From IMG/VR virus record IMGVR_UViG_3300022562_000520, positions 1 to 64,000 of that record: a stretch of DNA of 64,000 nucleotides. One strand, given 5' to 3'. Each line of letters starts with the position of its first letter. Within the stretch, counting starts at the first letter, position 1. The notes below the pieces were generated by a model. The model was not told where the DNA came from, ran no database searches, and saw nothing but the letters and a program-made list of their open reading frames with translations. Below are positions 611-38,900 of the stretch, one piece after another. The translations under genes and the position numbers were made by a program. The stretch is from a virus.

Positions 611-699
611 CGGAAGACAGAGGACTTGAACCCCAAGCCTGCAATAGGCTCCAACTGCTTTCGAAACAGTGTCTGCCACCAATGGCAGAATTATCTTCC
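611..699 (-). tRNA. tRNA-Ser(CGA), long variable arm
   Basis: Minus-strand class II tRNA: acceptor GGAAGAT/GTCTTCC, anticodon stem ACTGT/GCAGT around loop TTCGAAA (anticodon CGA, reads UCG), a long variable arm built on GAGCCT...AGGCTT, and a T-loop TTCAAGT. The discriminator base is G and CCA is not encoded, unlike the neighbouring Arg and CUA tRNAs. Its first nine bases are also the last two codons and TAA stop of the deformylase gene. Confidence 0.88.
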
Positions 700-1269
700 T
701 TTAAATTTTTTAATCTTCTTCTTCACGCGGTCTTGTTTTAGTCTAGATATACCATCAACAAAAACTTTTCCACATAAATGATCTATTTCGTGTTGAACTA
801 TAAAAGCCGCCAAACCTTGAAATTCATCTTGTGCTATCACATTTCCTGCGGTCTGATATTCAACCAACACCTTTTGTGGCCGCTTACGTTTTTCAAAATA
901 TCCCGGCACAGATAAGCATCCTTCGTCGAAACTATACATCAAATCGTTACTTTCAAGAATAACAGGATTAATTAATGGTATTATTCCCCTATTAATTTCA
1001 ACAACAATAACGCTTTGTGAAACTCCAACTTGTGGCGCAGCCAAACCAACGCCCTTTTTATGATACATGGTATATGCCATATCATAAATTAACTGGTGAA
1101 GTGTTTCATCAATTTCATGAACGAACTTACAGTGTTGATGTAAAATTTCGTCTGGCCAAAAAACCAAAGGCAAAATCTTCGGTTTTAGTTTTGGTGATAC
1201 CCCAAGAACATCAGGATTTGGAGGTACACTAGGTACCTCCAAATTCTTAGTCATTATATCAGTTTGCAT
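691..1269 (-). CDS. def: Peptide deformylase
   Basis: Zinc/iron hydrolase that removes the N-formyl group from nascent proteins. All three family motifs are present: GVGLAAPQVG (about residues 73-82), EGCLSVPG (about 116-123), and QHEIDHLCG (about 158-166) with the metal-binding HExxH. At 192 residues it is close to bacterial deformylases; the first 30 residues are a non-family extension and the C-terminus is Lys-rich. The ATG at 1269 overlaps the end of the HNH gene; an alternative ATG lies at 1254. The stop codon is inside the 5' end of tRNA-Ser. Deformylases are known in marine T4-like phages, where they are thought to support translation of phage or photosystem proteins; here the neighbours are tRNAs and bS21. 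Confidence 0.93.
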   Translation of the reverse strand: MQTDIMTKNLEVPSVPPNPDVLGVSPKLKPKILPLVFWPDEILHQHCKFVHEIDETLHQLIYDMAYTMYHKKGVGLAAPQVGVSQSVIVVEINRGIIPLINPVILESNDLMYSFDEGCLSVPGYFEKRKRPQKVLVEYQTAGNVIAQDEFQGLAAFIVQHEIDHLCGKVFVDGISRLKQDRVKKKIKKFKGR

Positions 1270-1941: not shown

Positions 1942-2442
1942 CTATGCTGCTTCTTCTAAAATCGCGTAAATTTGACTAAAATCAGTAGGTTTAAAATCAC
2001 CTTCAAGAATTTTATTTGCGATTTTTCTACCTATTCCATAATTAGAATAAAGTGGTTCTATCTTTGGCAACTCGATAGCTGCAAGTAAATCGATAGTTAC
2101 TACATGATTGAACGGTGCGAGGAACTGTACAAGCGAATCTGCTGCATATTTTGGTATCGATTTTCCATTAACGATTTCCTTCGCTCTGCTAATCTTTGCA
2201 GAAAGACTACAATAGGCATCATATAGGCCAGCATTTATTAAGTGCCCATTTTGTAATTTAGTCTTTCTGGTTATTGGTGTGAATCCACGTTCTGCTGGTT
2301 TGCCACATAGTAAATTAAACATCAAGTGATGTGCGCCCTGTAACCAGCAAGATGTTTCAGGATCGCTAATTCTAGCAGCGTTACTCCATGCGTGACGGAA
2401 TGAAATGTATTGTTCTTTGGTGTTAAAAATTGATTTAGTCAT
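1942..2442 (-). CDS. Hypothetical protein (166 aa), TAG stop followed by TAA
   Basis: Not recognised. It is a soluble, mostly helical-looking protein with no clear motif; the Cys/Trp/His-containing stretch SCWLQGAHHLMFNLLCG (about residues 31-47) is its most distinctive part. An AGGAG ribosome binding site precedes the ATG. It ends GCA GCA TAG TAA, so termination is doubled, which matters because an amber-type tRNA is encoded 165 bases upstream on the same strand. Confidence 0.75.
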   Translation of the reverse strand: MTKSIFNTKEQYISFRHAWSNAARISDPETSCWLQGAHHLMFNLLCGKPAERGFTPITRKTKLQNGHLINAGLYDAYCSLSAKISRAKEIVNGKSIPKYAADSLVQFLAPFNHVVTIDLLAAIELPKIEPLYSNYGIGRKIANKILEGDFKPTDFSQIYAILEEAA

Positions 2443-2606: not shown

Positions 2607-2680
2607 TGGCGCTCGCGGTGGGAGTCGAACCCACGTGCAAGGATTTAGAGTCCCCCGCTATGCCTCTCAGCTACACGAGC
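2607..2680 (-). tRNA. Amber-suppressor-type tRNA (anticodon CUA), CCA encoded
   Basis: Minus-strand cloverleaf with all arms intact: acceptor GCTCGTG/CGCGAGC, D-stem GCTG/TAGC, anticodon stem GGGGA/TCCTT (two G-U pairs), T-arm GTGGG/CCCAC with loop TTCGACT, discriminator G, CCA encoded. The seven-base anticodon loop is CTCTAAA, so position 33 is U and the anticodon is CUA, which reads UAG. The ACTCTAAATC context is typical of suppressor tRNAs in recoded phages. G73 would be compatible with glutamine charging, but the amino acid cannot be proven from sequence. It starts six bases after the bS21 stop. Confidence 0.88.
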
Positions 2681-2902: not shown

Positions 2903-2934
2903 ATAATATGCTTTAATGTTAATAAAATTAAGGT

Positions 2935-3893
2935 TGAGATTACACCTTTACTGCCTGTACCTTTGTGTCATTATCCCATCACCTGCGACAGTTAGGGTTC
3001 TACACTTATCCACGCCCCCATGGGGTGTCTACAAGCATGACTGCCTTTTTTGAAGTGTGGCGATTCACTTGTCGCGTAAAGCTATTCAAGGTTTCATCTA
3101 CCGTCTGCCTTGCGAGCAGTCAAGAGGGGCCTCCTCACCGTGCGACTCTGCCTTAATGCCCTTCACCTTGCGGGTTCCAGACAACTACATTCACCGAAGT
3201 GTGTAGTATTAAGCCATTTTCACCTTACACCGGACGCGTCTTTGCGTTTTTCATGTAAAAGATAGTTGGGGTTGAACCAACAGTCTTCTGCGTCTAAAGC
3301 AGATGCCTTACCATTAGGCTATATCTATAACTAGCGACGATGTGCGCGTCCAGTAGGTTCGCGATCTTTTGGATCACAAAATGCTACACACCACGTGTCT
3401 TTCCCCTGCCGAGTACTTGACCGTTTGTCAAGATCACTGGAACCTACCCGTCTTAAACGGGGTCTACGGAACCAACAACCTTTAAAACTGAAACAACGCC
3501 CTTGATTGCGGTCTTGGACTATTTGTTCCTACCCTTTATCCATCATGGCTCGTGCTTTGGTCTATCTGGGGACGGGTACCAGCCGTTCTTCATTCGCTCG
3601 TGTTCCCTGCTAGCCCAAAGGCATAACAGGCACTTAAACAAGTGTTCTTTCCCAAATTAGCACTTCCCCCAATACATCCGGCGCTCTTTTCACCGAACGA
3701 CCCTTTCGGGCAGGATGAGGCTTGCGTTTGTTTACCATTTCTGGCGGTGGTTAAGCTAGATCCCCACCTTTCCCCCTGTTACCAAGGTTTATGCCCAAAC
3801 GCGGCAATTCTTTAACATGATGGGAATCAAGTCCCACTTTACTCGACGCTCGCCCGAAGGTTTGTGTCTTACACACCAGATAGTGCTACATGT
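2935..3893 (-). ncRNA. Candidate large structured noncoding RNA (GOLLD/ROOL-like in size and setting) with an internal tRNA-like domain
   Basis: About 960 bases hold no plausible gene, although flanking genes are tightly packed, and base composition is clearly GC-richer than the surroundings. Read on the minus strand the region is full of local helices: GTGT-GTAAG-ACAC, CCC-GAAA-GGG and a second hairpin enclosed by CATCC/GGATG (a three-way junction near 3673-3720), CACTT-GTTT-AAGTG, CCCGT-TTAAG-ACGGG, CTTGAC-AAACG-GTCAAG, GATC-CAAAA-GATC, and ACTACA-CACTTCGGTG-AATGTAGT near 3184-3208. A tRNA-like cloverleaf sits inside it (3257-3328). Giant phage RNAs such as GOLLD and ROOL are of this scale and occur near phage tRNA genes. 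Assignment to either family is inference; strand is chosen from neighbours and the tRNA-like element. Confidence 0.6.
3257..3328 (-). tRNA. tRNA-like element, anticodon UAG, short variable loop (tRNA or tRNA mimic)
   Basis: A cloverleaf folds on the minus strand: D-stem GCCT/AGGC, anticodon stem TCTGC/GCAGA around TTTAGAC (anticodon UAG, which would read CUA, Leu), T-arm GTTGG/CCAAC with loop TTCAACC. It is odd for a leucine tRNA: the variable loop is only about five bases, whereas bacterial tRNA-Leu has a long arm. The acceptor ATAGATA/TATCTTT has a T-T mismatch at pair 2-71, the discriminator is T, and no CCA is encoded. It may be a domain of the surrounding RNA rather than a working tRNA. 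Confidence 0.6.
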
Positions 3894-3980
3894 CAAAATT
3901 TATAAAAAGTGATATAACTTGTTACATCACTATGATTTGTTTGTAAACTTGTATATATTATACATACACAAAAAGATTTG

Positions 3981-4310
3981 TCAATCCCTTTTTTTCATTT
4001 TTTTGAAAAATTCTTCCGCTTCTTGATTTTGTTTTTTAATTACTTCCACCAATTCGCATTTTTCATAATCATCACCATCATCACCATCGTAAAATCTATG
4101 AAAATGGCTTTTGAACCATGGCCCCGGATTATCGGGATTTGGGTCATACATTTCAGCTATATAATCTGCAACGAAAAGTACCATAGTAATAATCAAAGAT
4201 ACTGTATCATCTAAAAGATCTATTAGCCACAGTCCCGTTTGGATTAAAAAAACAATGGCAACGATATGATAAAATGTCGATCTTACATGATGTCTTCCAA
4301 AAATATTCAT
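3981..4310 (-). CDS. Small membrane protein, two transmembrane segments (109 aa)
   Basis: Not recognised. Two adjacent hydrophobic segments (about residues 13-30 and 37-52) are joined by a short acidic LIDLLDDT turn. A hydrophilic, Asp/Lys-rich tail of about 50 residues follows. The start is chosen at 4310 because that ATG follows the TAA of the upstream lipoprotein gene by one base (TAATATG), implying translational coupling; an upstream in-frame start would overlap that gene. It is the last of three co-directional genes for envelope-targeted proteins. A role in altering the host envelope is plausible but unproven. Confidence 0.75.
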   Translation of the reverse strand: MNIFGRHHVRSTFYHIVAIVFLIQTGLWLIDLLDDTVSLIITMVLFVADYIAEMYDPNPDNPGPWFKSHFHRFYDGDDGDDYEKCELVEVIKKQNQEAEEFFKKMKKRD

Positions 4311-5842: not shown

Positions 5843-6988
5843 TTAGTTATATTCAGTTCCGTTTTTACGTAATAGGTATTTTTCGCTTACACTTTTCAGA
5901 ATAACACGACCGATTTCATCATGCTTTCTTTCTGGGAATGGACGAATTACCACACCTTCGCGCATGTGTGCTTCTGTACCAGATGCGGTTTCTTTTCCAT
6001 CTGTGTATTTTTCTACAATTTCACGACTGTAAGGCCCAGCATATAGCATTGGTACTGCTTCCAATCCAAGTTGTTCACACATATAATGAACTTCGGGTTG
6101 TGTATAATATAATCCATTAGATGGATCGCCTAAGAAAATATCGAAGACGCGAAACTGAAGCGGTTGACCACCGTAAGTTAGGTCTTGTACACCCTCTCCA
6201 AAAATCTCTCCAAGGATGTAAACAGGTTCTTCAAAAAGTCCAATAAGGGTTCTAAGACGATCTAAAACTGACCAACCATCAGTATTTTTAGTAGCATCGT
6301 AGGCACGAATGTATAAATTTTTCGCATTAGCTTCATTAAACTTAAATGCTAAACCTTGACCACTTAAACCTTTGGAAGTAATAATAGGAATATCCGAATC
6401 AGGATGAAATCCCATACAACACCAAGTACCGTGGATTTTTTCTGTTAATGTGACATCTTCACCATCAATTAAAATATCTGGATACTTCTTCAAGTTTTCA
6501 ATATCATATTTTAGTGTCATACCAAAAGCATTAAAAACTTCACCTGCCATTTGTGTTGGAATTGGTGGTTCATACTTAGTAATACGCAGCCATTCAGTAA
6601 CATCATCGCCAATTTCTACGGAACGACCAAAGCCGCCTTCACTGTGCGTTACACAGTGAATATTAGAAATATCACCAGTGTCCATATCAATGCAGTCTTC
6701 GCGAGTTTCTACAGGATAAATTAAGCCCTGTGATAAGATGCCGCGAAGCTTAACAGCTTTTACACGGTTTTTATCCTTACCTGCAAGTTTACCTTCTAAA
6801 CCAAGACGTTCAATCATCCAATCGGGAAGAATAGCAGCCTCTGGAATATAAACACCAAGATCGCCGGTTTTAAATTGTCCTTTACGAACAATAGAACGAT
6901 AATCACCGACCTTTGCTAATTCAATTACGTCAGCATTGGGATGTTCTTCAATTTCCAATCTGTAAACTTTACATTCAAACTTACTCAT
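5843..6988 (-). CDS. RNA ligase, Rnl5/DraRnl-type
   Basis: ATP-dependent RNA end-joining enzyme. The nucleotidyltransferase motifs are in order: motif I EKIHGT with the AMP-accepting Lys at about 184, motif III VYILGEIFGEG (about 256), motif IV EGVVIRPF (about 343) and motif V ILKSVSEKYL (about 364). The N-terminal 140 residues form a separate OB-like domain, as in the Deinococcus DraRnl (Rnl5) family, rather than the T4 Rnl1 or Rnl2 layout. In a phage with many tRNAs a ligase would repair host-cleaved tRNAs. Its ATG overlaps the backup TGA of the upstream 87-aa gene, so the two are coupled. Confidence 0.88.
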   Translation of the reverse strand: MSKFECKVYRLEIEEHPNADVIELAKVGDYRSIVRKGQFKTGDLGVYIPEAAILPDWMIERLGLEGKLAGKDKNRVKAVKLRGILSQGLIYPVETREDCIDMDTGDISNIHCVTHSEGGFGRSVEIGDDVTEWLRITKYEPPIPTQMAGEVFNAFGMTLKYDIENLKKYPDILIDGEDVTLTEKIHGTWCCMGFHPDSDIPIITSKGLSGQGLAFKFNEANAKNLYIRAYDATKNTDGWSVLDRLRTLIGLFEEPVYILGEIFGEGVQDLTYGGQPLQFRVFDIFLGDPSNGLYYTQPEVHYMCEQLGLEAVPMLYAGPYSREIVEKYTDGKETASGTEAHMREGVVIRPFPERKHDEIGRVILKSVSEKYLLRKNGTEYN

Positions 6989-6990
6989 TT

Positions 6991-7254
6991 CTAAATACTC
7001 TGAACTACATCTATACCTTCAGGGATTTCACTTTCATAAAGCACTACTACTTCCCACCAAACAGTTCTACCATATTCACCAAATTCCCATGGCATTGTTT
7101 CTTTAAAATGTGCAGTTAATTCCCTTTCAGATGGTCTGTTTAACCAATATCCTTCAACGCCCGAATCTGTTGATTCTGATTCCCATGTAGCAACATAGAT
7201 TGGATGTTTGTTTGGTTTAGTTGCCTTTTTCTTCTTTTTTAATTTTTTTGCCAT
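6991..7254 (-). CDS. Hypothetical protein, Lys-rich N-terminus (87 aa), TAG stop
   Basis: Not recognised. It starts with a run of Lys (MAKKLKKKKKATKPNKH) and continues as a Trp/Glu-rich domain (YVATWES..., TVWWEVVVLYESE) that could be a small β-sheet. It ends in TAG followed after one codon (AAA) by TGA, and that TGA overlaps the start of the RNA ligase. Read-through would therefore add only two residues. Confidence 0.7.
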   Translation of the reverse strand: MAKKLKKKKKATKPNKHPIYVATWESESTDSGVEGYWLNRPSERELTAHFKETMPWEFGEYGRTVWWEVVVLYESEIPEGIDVVQSI

Positions 7255-20441: not shown

Positions 20442-20823
20442 CTTTGCTAGAAATGGTAGCAACCCCAACGCCATTGCCATCAGTTCTATCATACCTGAAT
20501 GGTATAACGGCAAGGAAATGCGTGAACTACTAGCACCAAAATTCGATTTGGTTAAAAAAACCAAAGATGGTACATATAGTAAAGAAAAATATAAAGAAGA
20601 ATATCTTAAGCTACTTAATGATAGACAAATAGTTCCTGAAGAATTGATTGAACTTTTACCAGATGGGGCAATTCTTTTATGTTACGAAAAACCTGGAGGA
20701 TTTTGTCATAGAAGAATCCTTGCTGAATGGATTAAAGAACATATGGGGTTTGAAATACCAGAATGGAAAAGTGAAAAAGAAATGGCTAAAGATAAAATAG
20801 TTGACAGTATATTAGATTTTTAG
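20419..20823 (+). CDS. DUF488-family protein, TAG stop with TAA three codons later
   Basis: The start is set at 20419 (MKKIYTSNFARNG), where the family similarity begins, rather than at the upstream in-frame ATG. The C-terminal ILLCYEKPGGFCHRRILAEWI is the DUF488 signature (LLC.E....CHR..LA). The family's function is unknown; the Cys-His-Arg suggests a nucleotide- or phosphate-binding or catalytic site. It ends in TAG followed by TAT AAT CCA TAA, so read-through adds four residues. Those bases also form the -10 region of the clamp-gene promoter. Confidence 0.75.
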   Translation: MKKIYTSNFARNGSNPNAIAISSIIPEWYNGKEMRELLAPKFDLVKKTKDGTYSKEKYKEEYLKLLNDRQIVPEELIELLPDGAILLCYEKPGGFCHRRILAEWIKEHMGFEIPEWKSEKEMAKDKIVDSILDF

Positions 20824-35900: not shown

Positions 35901-38900
35901 CAACGAAAATACGTGTAGTATCATTCCCACTATCATAATATGTTGTAGGTGTAGTAGGTGTAGATAGTAATGTTTTCCAAGTACCATCGTTTACTGAAGA
36001 ATTCTTAATATAGAAGGTAATTTGTGAATTACATGCACCGCTATCTGTGCATGGATCAAAAGTTGCAACGTAATCACCTGCTACTAAGAAAGAATTAGTA
36101 AGACCATCAGCTTCCAATATCGTTAATCCACCACCAATAGATGAATTTTTATAGTTCCATGTAAATGCATCTGATGCATTATATTCTGTATTTTTATATG
36201 GTGATGTAATTTCATTTTGTGAAACATAATCTAAGAATGCTTCTTCTAAATATTGTTGATATTTAACAGGGTTATCGTTAGCTAATTGTTCAAAATCATA
36301 AGCAAGATTTGGAAATGTAGGAACATTGTCATATAAACGCGTTTCAATTTCATAGATAGTATCCCCCAATAAAGTATCAAGGTTTACTTCTTGCCATGCA
36401 GAAATTGTTGCGGTTGTTACATCATTTGGATCTGTTCCATTATGCAATCTTCCACCACCCAATAATAGACCTGTTACTTCATTCCATTCTACATTACCCT
36501 GATAATCAGTTTCTTTTATACGTAAAACTTCTAAACTTGGTGTCAAATCCATCCACAACGTTCCATCTGGAAGTGATGATGATGGTTGATCTTCACCAGA
36601 TTCTGCCACAATATAACGATATAATATGTTAGGTTCACCAGATTTAATTTGATACCAATAAACACCTTCTCTGTTTGATATAGCATCAAAGCTTGTTAAA
36701 AATTCGGAAATATTGTCGGGTGGAGACATTGATGATGTTACACCAATACCTCTATCAATAGTTCTAGGATCTGGTGAAGATACTACTAATTGAGAAATAA
36801 TATCTTTTGTAGCTTGTGTTAATTTATAACTATGACGATGGCCATCATGATGAACAACATCATTAAGGGACAAATTATCATCGACTATTCTATTAGGAGT
36901 CATAGCATTGACAAGATTAATATATGGAAGTGTGGCAATCCAATTTCTAATACCAATATCATTACTACCTTCTACATCTATAAAAGTTGTAGAATCTCCA
37001 TATACAAATGATGCTTGATCATTTAATTCGTGTTCTGTTATAACATTAGTAGCAACATAAGAAGATAAATCTAGGATGTTTGCTATTTCTAAATTTGTAA
37101 GTAAAGATATAGCATTTTCACGATAAATTTCTTTAACTGAATTTAGTAACTTTTCATATTGATCGTGGGCAAATTCTATTAATGTTCTTGGTGTAACAGT
37201 ATCAATAAAAATGGATGATAGTAAATTATCAAAACCATAGTTAAATTCTTTAATAGTTCCACCATATCCATAATTTACGTCATTAATAGGTAATAAATTA
37301 AACATACCATCTTTAGAGCCTGTATAACCAGGAATCAATGGTTGTTCTTCAATAATTGTTGAAAAATGTGTTAATAATTCGCGGGAATTTAAATATTTGC
37401 GATTTTCATGTAAATGATTATAATATAATGGATCTGGTATTTCCCAATCACCGATCCACGTGCCTGTAGAAGAAAGATGGTTAATCTGACTTTGGAACCA
37501 TTCTTGTGTTGCCTGTGTAATGGCTTCTGCTTCTATAGTATATGTTCCTTTAAGTATTAATTCAGCAGCACGAGCTGTGATATAATCATCCTTCTCTGTA
37601 TTATATTCTTCTAATGAACGTACATCCCAATCTACTTTTTCTGGAATATACATTTCATCGTTTAATCCACCTTTCCAAATGGTTTGTAAATTTATATCCG
37701 TTACATAGTTATCAAATTTTTCAATTTCTACCCATATATTACCAGATACAAATCTTCTATATAATTTATCTAATACAGGATTATACCAATATAATCCATC
37801 AATAGCACGTAAACGAGAGTCTGGTTCTACTTCACTAACTATAGCTTTAGTATAGTGTTCTGACATTTCTGTCTTATCGCTCCATTCTACACCTCTCCAA
37901 AAATATACAACCTGTGTATCAGGATTATACCAATAATCTTCTTCTTTATTAGCATAATCACGATAGGCATATAAAACACCGTCATCTTCTTCTAGTAAAA
38001 ATTGGTCAAATTCATATATGTCATTGACTGAATCATATACTATACGAAATCCAGTATTAACATTAATTTCATATTCCGAGGATGTTCTATATCCAAAAAT
38101 TGGATTAGCTTTATATGCTGGCGTTCCATCAACATTAAATATATCAAATAACGGATATTGATTAGTTCTAGTTTTTATCTGTTCTACTTTACGATAATTA
38201 ATTAAACTTATAGCAGAATCACCAACTAAATCATAAGTTTCATCACTTTCTACCATTCTAACTTTATTTAAATGACTACCCAATTCATCAATAGAAGAAG
38301 CACCTACTTCAATAGCAACATTTAATCCAGCATCAACTGGGTTAAAAAATTCTATACCAACTACATAAACAGTTATACCATTTTTATTAGAAGAAAAGTC
38401 AGGATCAGCATCAGGTTGAATTGGTGATGTGATATTTGATATATCACCGCTTATTGTAGCACCTGGTGGAATTCCTGGACTACCGCTGACACGTATTCTA
38501 TTTGAATTAGGTACAGTTGGTGGTATAACTTGAAAATCCATAGTTCCAAAATTGCTATTTCCAGATACACGAATTGTATCACCAGTATTAAAATATTGTG
38601 AGTAATTTCCATCAACTATAAATTCATTCGTATCATAATCTATGGATATAATATCTAAAACTACTTCACCCAATTCATCATATGTTCCAAATTGGCGTTC
38701 TATATCAGTTCCAGCTGCATTAGTAAGGTAAACACGTATATCATCAAAACCATATAATGCTTGACGATTCAATGGACGGGTGTGTCCTACTTCTATACTA
38801 TCAGTTAGATAAAATGTTGACCAACTATTTCCCGGTGAACCGACCTTTGTTACGAAATATTTTTGTTGATATGCCGATGTTGTATATTCATAAACTTCAC

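Follow-up and report, generated by a model that had tools for sequence, protein, structure and literature searches.

An amber-suppressor-type tRNA of a widespread phage family, predicted to read UAG in competition with host RF1, in a standard-code jumbo phage related to XacN1

Introduction

Why does a T4-superfamily-like phage that rarely ends its genes in TAG encode a tRNA with the anticodon CUA? The window analysed here, 64,000 nucleotides of the partial, 100,293-bp record of such a phage (G000), contains a tRNA of this kind at 2607-2680. The first-pass annotation rightly took the phage to be T4-superfamily-like, its TAG stops to be rare and its tRNA to be of the amber-suppressor type. It offered two readings: either TAG is recoded elsewhere in the genome, or the phage is built to tolerate suppression and perhaps forces read-through of host genes that end in TAG.

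In crAss-like and Lak phages, CUA tRNAs go together with the recoding of TAG (PMC10607447, PMC7886860, PMC8346664). A CUA tRNA in a standard-code phage is also an already published kind of finding: the XacN1 paper reported two CUA tRNAs and 18 amber stops and found no target (PMC5852040), Ralstonia phage RsoM2USA has one CUA tRNA (PMC8504454), and Stenotrophomonas phage Summit has one suppressor tRNA with no targets identified (PMC9022506). RsoM2USA and Summit, likened by description, share with our phage one predicted suppressor tRNA each and no target shown. A further jumbo-phage report, on Atu_ph07, describes a UCA tRNA (PMC6102473). Hitherto standard-code CUA tRNAs were single reports, curiosities without a target; here they appear as a coherent family present in many phages.

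Results

A tRNA(CUA) gene in a conserved cassette with GOLLD RNA and bS21

ARAGORN and Rfam (58.9 bits) agree on a tRNA with anticodon CUA at 2607-2680, on the minus strand; the location given in the first-pass annotation stands, and its strand is corrected accordingly. With the stems assigned by hand, the gene reads GCTCGTG TA GCTG AGAGGCA TAGC G GGGGA CTCTAAA TCCTT GCAC GTGGG TTCGACT CCCAC CGCGAGC G CCA, a complete fold with discriminator base G73 and, as had been described from the letters, the anticodon loop CTCTAAA and an encoded CCA end. The cloverleaf is kept in the minimum-energy fold (-29.1 kcal/mol), and the earlier wording "fully paired" holds only if its several G-U pairs are counted. 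The ARAGORN label "tRNA-Pyl" reflects the CTA anticodon alone. A tRNA-Pyl has a specific fold, with, for example, one base between the acceptor and D stems, and the tRNA at 2607-2680 has two (TA) at this place, which does not fit that identity.

The sequence closest to this tRNA is a CUA tRNA at the same location in G001 (L002), a near-complete phage of 363,531 bp with 45 tRNAs, two of them CUA, and homologues at the same place in relatives likewise carry the anticodon CUA. Our record is collinear with 249-340 kb of G001, which matches 69 of its 90 genes at a median identity of 66%. XacN1 is more distant than G001, with homologues for 38 of the 90 genes and a median identity of 42%. G002 (L003) is a second relative that contains the cassette.

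On the minus strand, the cassette runs from a promoter (3984-3957) through GOLLD RNA and bS21 to the tRNA(CUA). The bS21 ribosomal protein gene (2687-2902, 71 aa; Pfam PF01165, 6e-16; NCBIfam S21p) ends in a TAG stop 6 bp before the tRNA. The conserved 3' domain of GOLLD (2931-3394, minus strand; Rfam RF02032) scores 198 bits against a gathering score of 150, and the 5' part of the RNA probably extends to about 3900. The promoter is a perfect sigma-70 consensus, TTGACA-16-TATAAT (3957-3984, minus strand), identified by consensus match only, and we infer that it drives the whole cassette. Two such perfect 12/12 consensus promoters, at 1904-1932 and 3957-3984 (minus strand), lie ahead of the genes for translation, which suggests that the host polymerase transcribes this block strongly and early. 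The block also holds, besides bS21 and the tRNA, a peptide deformylase gene assigned by profile match (691-1269, minus strand).

The order GOLLD - bS21 - tRNA(CUA) is conserved in G000, G001 and G002, with GOLLD in the same position in both relatives; membership of this tRNA(CUA) in a conserved cassette is new here. XacN1 resembles our phage as a standard-code, T4-superfamily-like jumbo phage with CUA tRNAs, a GOLLD RNA and very few TAG stops (8 of 426 in AP018399.1 with the gene caller used here). It differs in that its two CUA tRNAs adjoin, with no bS21 annotated beside them, and its GOLLD lacks an embedded tRNA. A general link between GOLLD and CUA tRNAs was rejected (4 of 48 CUA-tRNA records against 2 of 47 control records). 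Between the suppressor tRNAs and GOLLD of XacN1, a tmRNA is predicted at 37201-37621 (L026 2535-2955), which is absent from the annotated features shown there.

Within GOLLD, ARAGORN and Rfam recognize a tRNA-like domain (3257-3328, minus strand) without CCA, whose anticodon is UAG here and CUA in G001 and G002. Its anticodon varies further, between UAG, CUA, GUU and CCA, among the window, L002, L003, L378, L379 and L382. Because the anticodon is variable and the CCA end absent, this domain is probably not a decoding tRNA, and we rejected it as a second suppressor.

Phage CUA tRNAs form one family by their bodies

A pattern scan found at least 120 viral stretches with CUA-type tRNAs, and ARAGORN confirmed the anticodon in 98 among the matches listed. 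When tRNAs were compared after removal of the anticodon loop and the T loop, the nearest neighbour was another CUA tRNA for 62-63 of 83 phage CUA tRNAs (among the matches listed), although CUA tRNAs made up 11% of the set. This clustering is comparable to that of true isoacceptors such as Pro-UGG or Trp and holds with close copies excluded; the sample was chosen by a T-arm pattern, as were the CAT controls, and some bias may remain in it. Since the bodies cluster like those of isoacceptors, the phage CUA tRNAs are a maintained family, not scattered mutants, a grouping that is new here. G1-C72 is dominant in the family, and the discriminator bases, among the matches listed, are A in 52, G in 21, T in 9 and C in 1. 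The nearest non-CUA class was inconsistent, and a single sense-tRNA origin was rejected. On another viral contig (3300024331_000007), a predicted tRNA with the ochre-suppressor-type anticodon UUA (L065 584-661) lies about 250 bp from a CUA tRNA.

The phage uses the standard genetic code

Using a simple codon-usage caller, we called 90 genes in the record, which end in TAA (73), TGA (13) or TAG (4). None of 32 long genes in the 100 kb, structural module included, contains an in-frame TAG, which bears out what the first-pass annotation had stated for the window. Coding density is 0.911 with the standard code and 0.919 with TAG as a sense codon, and reading TAG as sense brings no density gain in G000, G001, G002 or XacN1. 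No homology spans a TAG stop across 14 phages. In some recoded phages a phage RF2 replaces RF1; the partial record of our phage has no RF-1 domain, and the factor found in G001 is RF1-like, not RF2. This phage shares with crAss-like and Lak phages a phage-encoded tRNA with the anticodon CUA but differs from them in having no in-frame TAG, where their genomes have many; it uses the standard code and is not TAG-recoded. The earlier suggestion that recoding is used elsewhere in the genome, drawn from the crAss-like and Lak phages, finds no support in the in-frame TAG counts, the coding densities or the search for homology across TAG stops.

TAG stops are rare in this phage but not in CUA carriers generally

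Four genes end in TAG, out of 52 called in the window and 90 in the whole record, and they have exactly the second stops that the first-pass annotation described. The gene at 1942-2442 (minus strand, 166 aa, no family) has TAA directly after TAG; the stop of its homologues in G001 and G002 is TAA. The gene at 6991-7254 (minus strand, 87 aa, no family) was found by gene calling, and the DUF488 gene at 20518-20823 (plus strand) has a TAG common to G001 and G002. In bS21 the backup stop is a TAA read in frame in the tRNA(CUA)'s own anticodon loop; the TAG stop itself is not conserved, the homologues in G001 and G002 ending in TAA. A second in-frame stop lies within 14 codons of 4 of 4 TAG, 48 of 71 TAA and 10 of 13 TGA stops. 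As TAG stops do not differ significantly from the others (58 of 84; Fisher p=0.31), we rejected backup stops as an adaptation, and no special meaning can be given to those singled out before. Nor do these counts bear out a phage "built to tolerate suppression": second stops do not set its TAG-ended genes apart from the rest, and in G001, with its two CUA tRNAs, TAG is the stop of 50 genes.

The rarity of TAG, which the first-pass annotation had also proposed to check, is confirmed against other phage loci, with about 12.6% TAG (P=0.008), but not against G001 (50 of 545; p=0.16) or its collinear stretch (6 of 85; p=0.53). When only genes of 200 aa or more are counted, TAG ends 0 of 47 in G000, 0 of 31 in G002, 0 of 137 in XacN1 and 20 of 157 in G001, and it is frequent in the unrelated CUA carriers G005, G007 and G008. 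We surveyed the 98 ARAGORN-confirmed CUA loci (among the matches listed) and 110 CAT-tRNA loci on viral contigs. At loci without signs of recoding, TAG made up 12.6% of stops in CUA carriers (77 loci, among the matches listed) and 14.4% in CAT controls (91 loci; p=0.33), and TAG depletion as a mark of CUA carriers was rejected. A possible subset with near-zero TAG (G000, G002, XacN1 and G006) was not significant in the larger survey. TAG rarity is therefore real in this phage, yet no rule of CUA carriers, and self-avoidance of TAG is not general, given the 50 TAG stops of G001. With a family that is mostly without recoding and whose TAG usage is ordinary overall, TAG recoding can explain few of its members, and a function under the normal code is needed.

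Predicted function of the tRNA(CUA)

We favour, with moderate confidence, a function in which this tRNA reads UAG in competition with host RF1. It would most likely be transcribed together with GOLLD RNA and bS21 from the strong host-type promoter and most likely be charged by a host synthetase; no GlnRS/GluRS-type synthetase was found in these phages. The discriminator base, G here and A in G001 and G002, may even leave room for different charging. Once charged, the tRNA would read UAG, competing with host RF1. Because the stops of the phage are mostly UAA (81%) and no large gene ends in UAG, the main effect of suppression would be on UAG-ended mRNAs of the host (or of a competitor) and on UAG mutations rather than on the proteins of the phage itself.

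That the tRNA is aimed at the host or at rivals, either by making ribosomes read past the UAG stops of host genes or by rescuing amber mutants of the phage or of a co-infecting one, we consider possible, though less than probable. Avoidance of TAG in the phage's own large genes and conservation of the CUA family in standard-code phages fit this reading, but no target is known, and bacterial genes with high expression hardly ever use UAG, according to PMC8954436. Forced read-through of TAG-ended host genes, suggested in the first-pass annotation, is a possible effect. It is unlikely, in our estimate, that the tRNA leaves UAG unread and is either carried along neutrally in the tRNA cluster or kept as a spare substrate for defences that cut tRNAs. 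Jumbo phages do gather large tRNA sets, such as the 45 of G001, and our phage has a gene for an RNA ligase of the DRB0094 family with a possible role in tRNA/RNA repair (5843-6988, minus strand; NCBIfam TIGR02306, 1e-73). Against this, a coherent family has retained the CUA anticodon in diverse phages, and G000 and G001 both have it at one and the same site next to bS21, as would be expected if the anticodon is under selection.

It is very improbable that the tRNA serves programmed read-through of a single phage gene or a few. In favour of this stands DUF488 (20518-20823), which ends in TAG followed by Tyr in G000, G001 and G002, but the extension beyond this first Tyr is not conserved, and the XacN1 authors likewise were left without a target (PMC5852040). 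The long extensions behind TAG in G001 belong to the following gene, which has a start of its own, and those examined among the apparent same-frame pairs behind TAG in 14 phages were antisense shadows or adjacent genes. Least credible of all is TAG recoding (code 15) in regions of the genome outside the record, as the pairing of CUA tRNAs with recoding in crAss-like and Lak phages might suggest: 100 kb contain no in-frame TAG, and no TAG-spanning homology occurs in the 363-kb G001, in G002 or in XacN1.

Stop-interrupted RF1-like genes in related phages

The first-pass annotation had also advised a check for a phage release-factor gene. A search with Pfam PF00472 gave one match in G001 and none in our partial record or in XacN1; RF1-like genes occur in other phages too. 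The G001 factor matches NCBIfam RF1 (3e-36) better than RF2 (1e-19) and lacks domain 1, and its gene has an in-frame UGA at codon 36, at the position of a Trp in bacterial RF1. In agreement, a match to RF1 in the PDB (2e-35) starts at RF1 residue ~112-126, with the RF1 Trp aligned to the UGA codon. These factors of the relatives, encoded outside the window, have domains 2-4 with the PxT (PPT in G001) and GGQ motifs.

With an alignment of G001 and L387 as the query, we found 28 viral loci, 26 of which (22 without near-copies) have UGA at that very codon. At L412 a +1 shift is needed at CUU UAG C, and in L413 the Trp codon is TGG, with an in-frame UGA following two codons later. In phages selected by their tRNAs, the Pfam search added five UGA genes (L447, L450, L452, L454, L460), two genes with the CUU UAG C site (L449, L459) and two without interruption (L448, L451). 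The UGA of L447 and L450 is aligned one codon later, and L450 has a second UGA. Bacterial genome records contributed two UGA genes (L481, L482) and one CUU UAG C gene (L483). L482, in Jiella sp. LLJ827 (contig NZ_JAKQZG010000004.1), probably lies on a phage-derived element and is possibly an accessible source. In total, about 29 distinct genes have UGA at or beside the conserved Trp codon, near codon 36 (G001 (L384, L386/L398), L399-L411, L414-L425, L447, L450, L452, L454, L460, L481 and L482), and four (L412, L449, L459 and L483) require the shift at CUU UAG C.

In four UGA-gene phages that were checked, TGA is the ordinary stop of 26-52% of genes, at high standard-code density, and in G001 of 20%; as the same phages use TGA as an ordinary stop, the UGA in the RF1-like gene is a local feature and not a changed code. 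All 22 genes share the UGA and, just before it, the GG of a glycine codon; in 16 of them the UGA is followed by A, and no strong nucleotide signal was evident further downstream. Conservation of the stop very probably reflects programmed recoding. The UGA is predicted to be read through as Trp under the control of RF2, whereas the UAG class, by analogy, would be a mirror image of prfB autoregulation gated by RF1.

Like prfB, which encodes RF2, these genes are release-factor genes interrupted early by a stop codon. In prfB the site is CUU UGA C with a +1 shift; the phage RF1 genes have either a same-frame UGA or a +1 site at CUU UAG C. According to a 2016 review, an early in-frame UGA with same-frame continuation was not found in bacterial RF2 genes and a UAG/RF1 counterpart was unknown, while it did mention a giant amoeba virus whose release-factor gene involves read-through (PMC5009743). 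In 2025, a survey of more than 12,000 genomes saw no case of a programmed shift in prfA (PMC12421855). Among phage RF1-like genes, both the in-frame UGA and the CUU UAG C site occur, which bears on the point left open in these two papers.

An RF-1 domain of any kind was present in 13 of 48 CUA-tRNA records and 2 of 47 CAT-tRNA records (p=0.004), the control records being smaller. Limited to RF1-like genes and records of at least 100 kb, the counts were 8 of 30 and 1 of 13 (p=0.24), so that the link between CUA tRNA and phage RF1-like gene is only suggestive. In several phages with a gated RF1, CUA tRNAs were confirmed by ARAGORN, and only confirmed ones were counted, as the pattern matches were partly other tRNAs. 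We put forward, as a rather doubtful extension, that this jumbo-phage lineage controls termination by two devices, its own CUA tRNA, which would rival RF1 at UAG, and a domain-1-less RF1 that would need recoding at an early stop and whose output would report host termination; our phage would then have the tRNA and, like G001, a gated RF1, in the unassembled part of its genome. If true, the CUA tRNA and the stop-gated RF1, made by UGA decoding as Trp or by a +1 shift at CUU UAG C, would be a joint phage termination module.

Four phages of 634-735 kb (L388, L389, L392 and L393; LR756501, LR756502, LR756504 and LR745206) also have RF1-like genes without domain 1, in which one or two in-frame UGA lie elsewhere, at codons 39-54.
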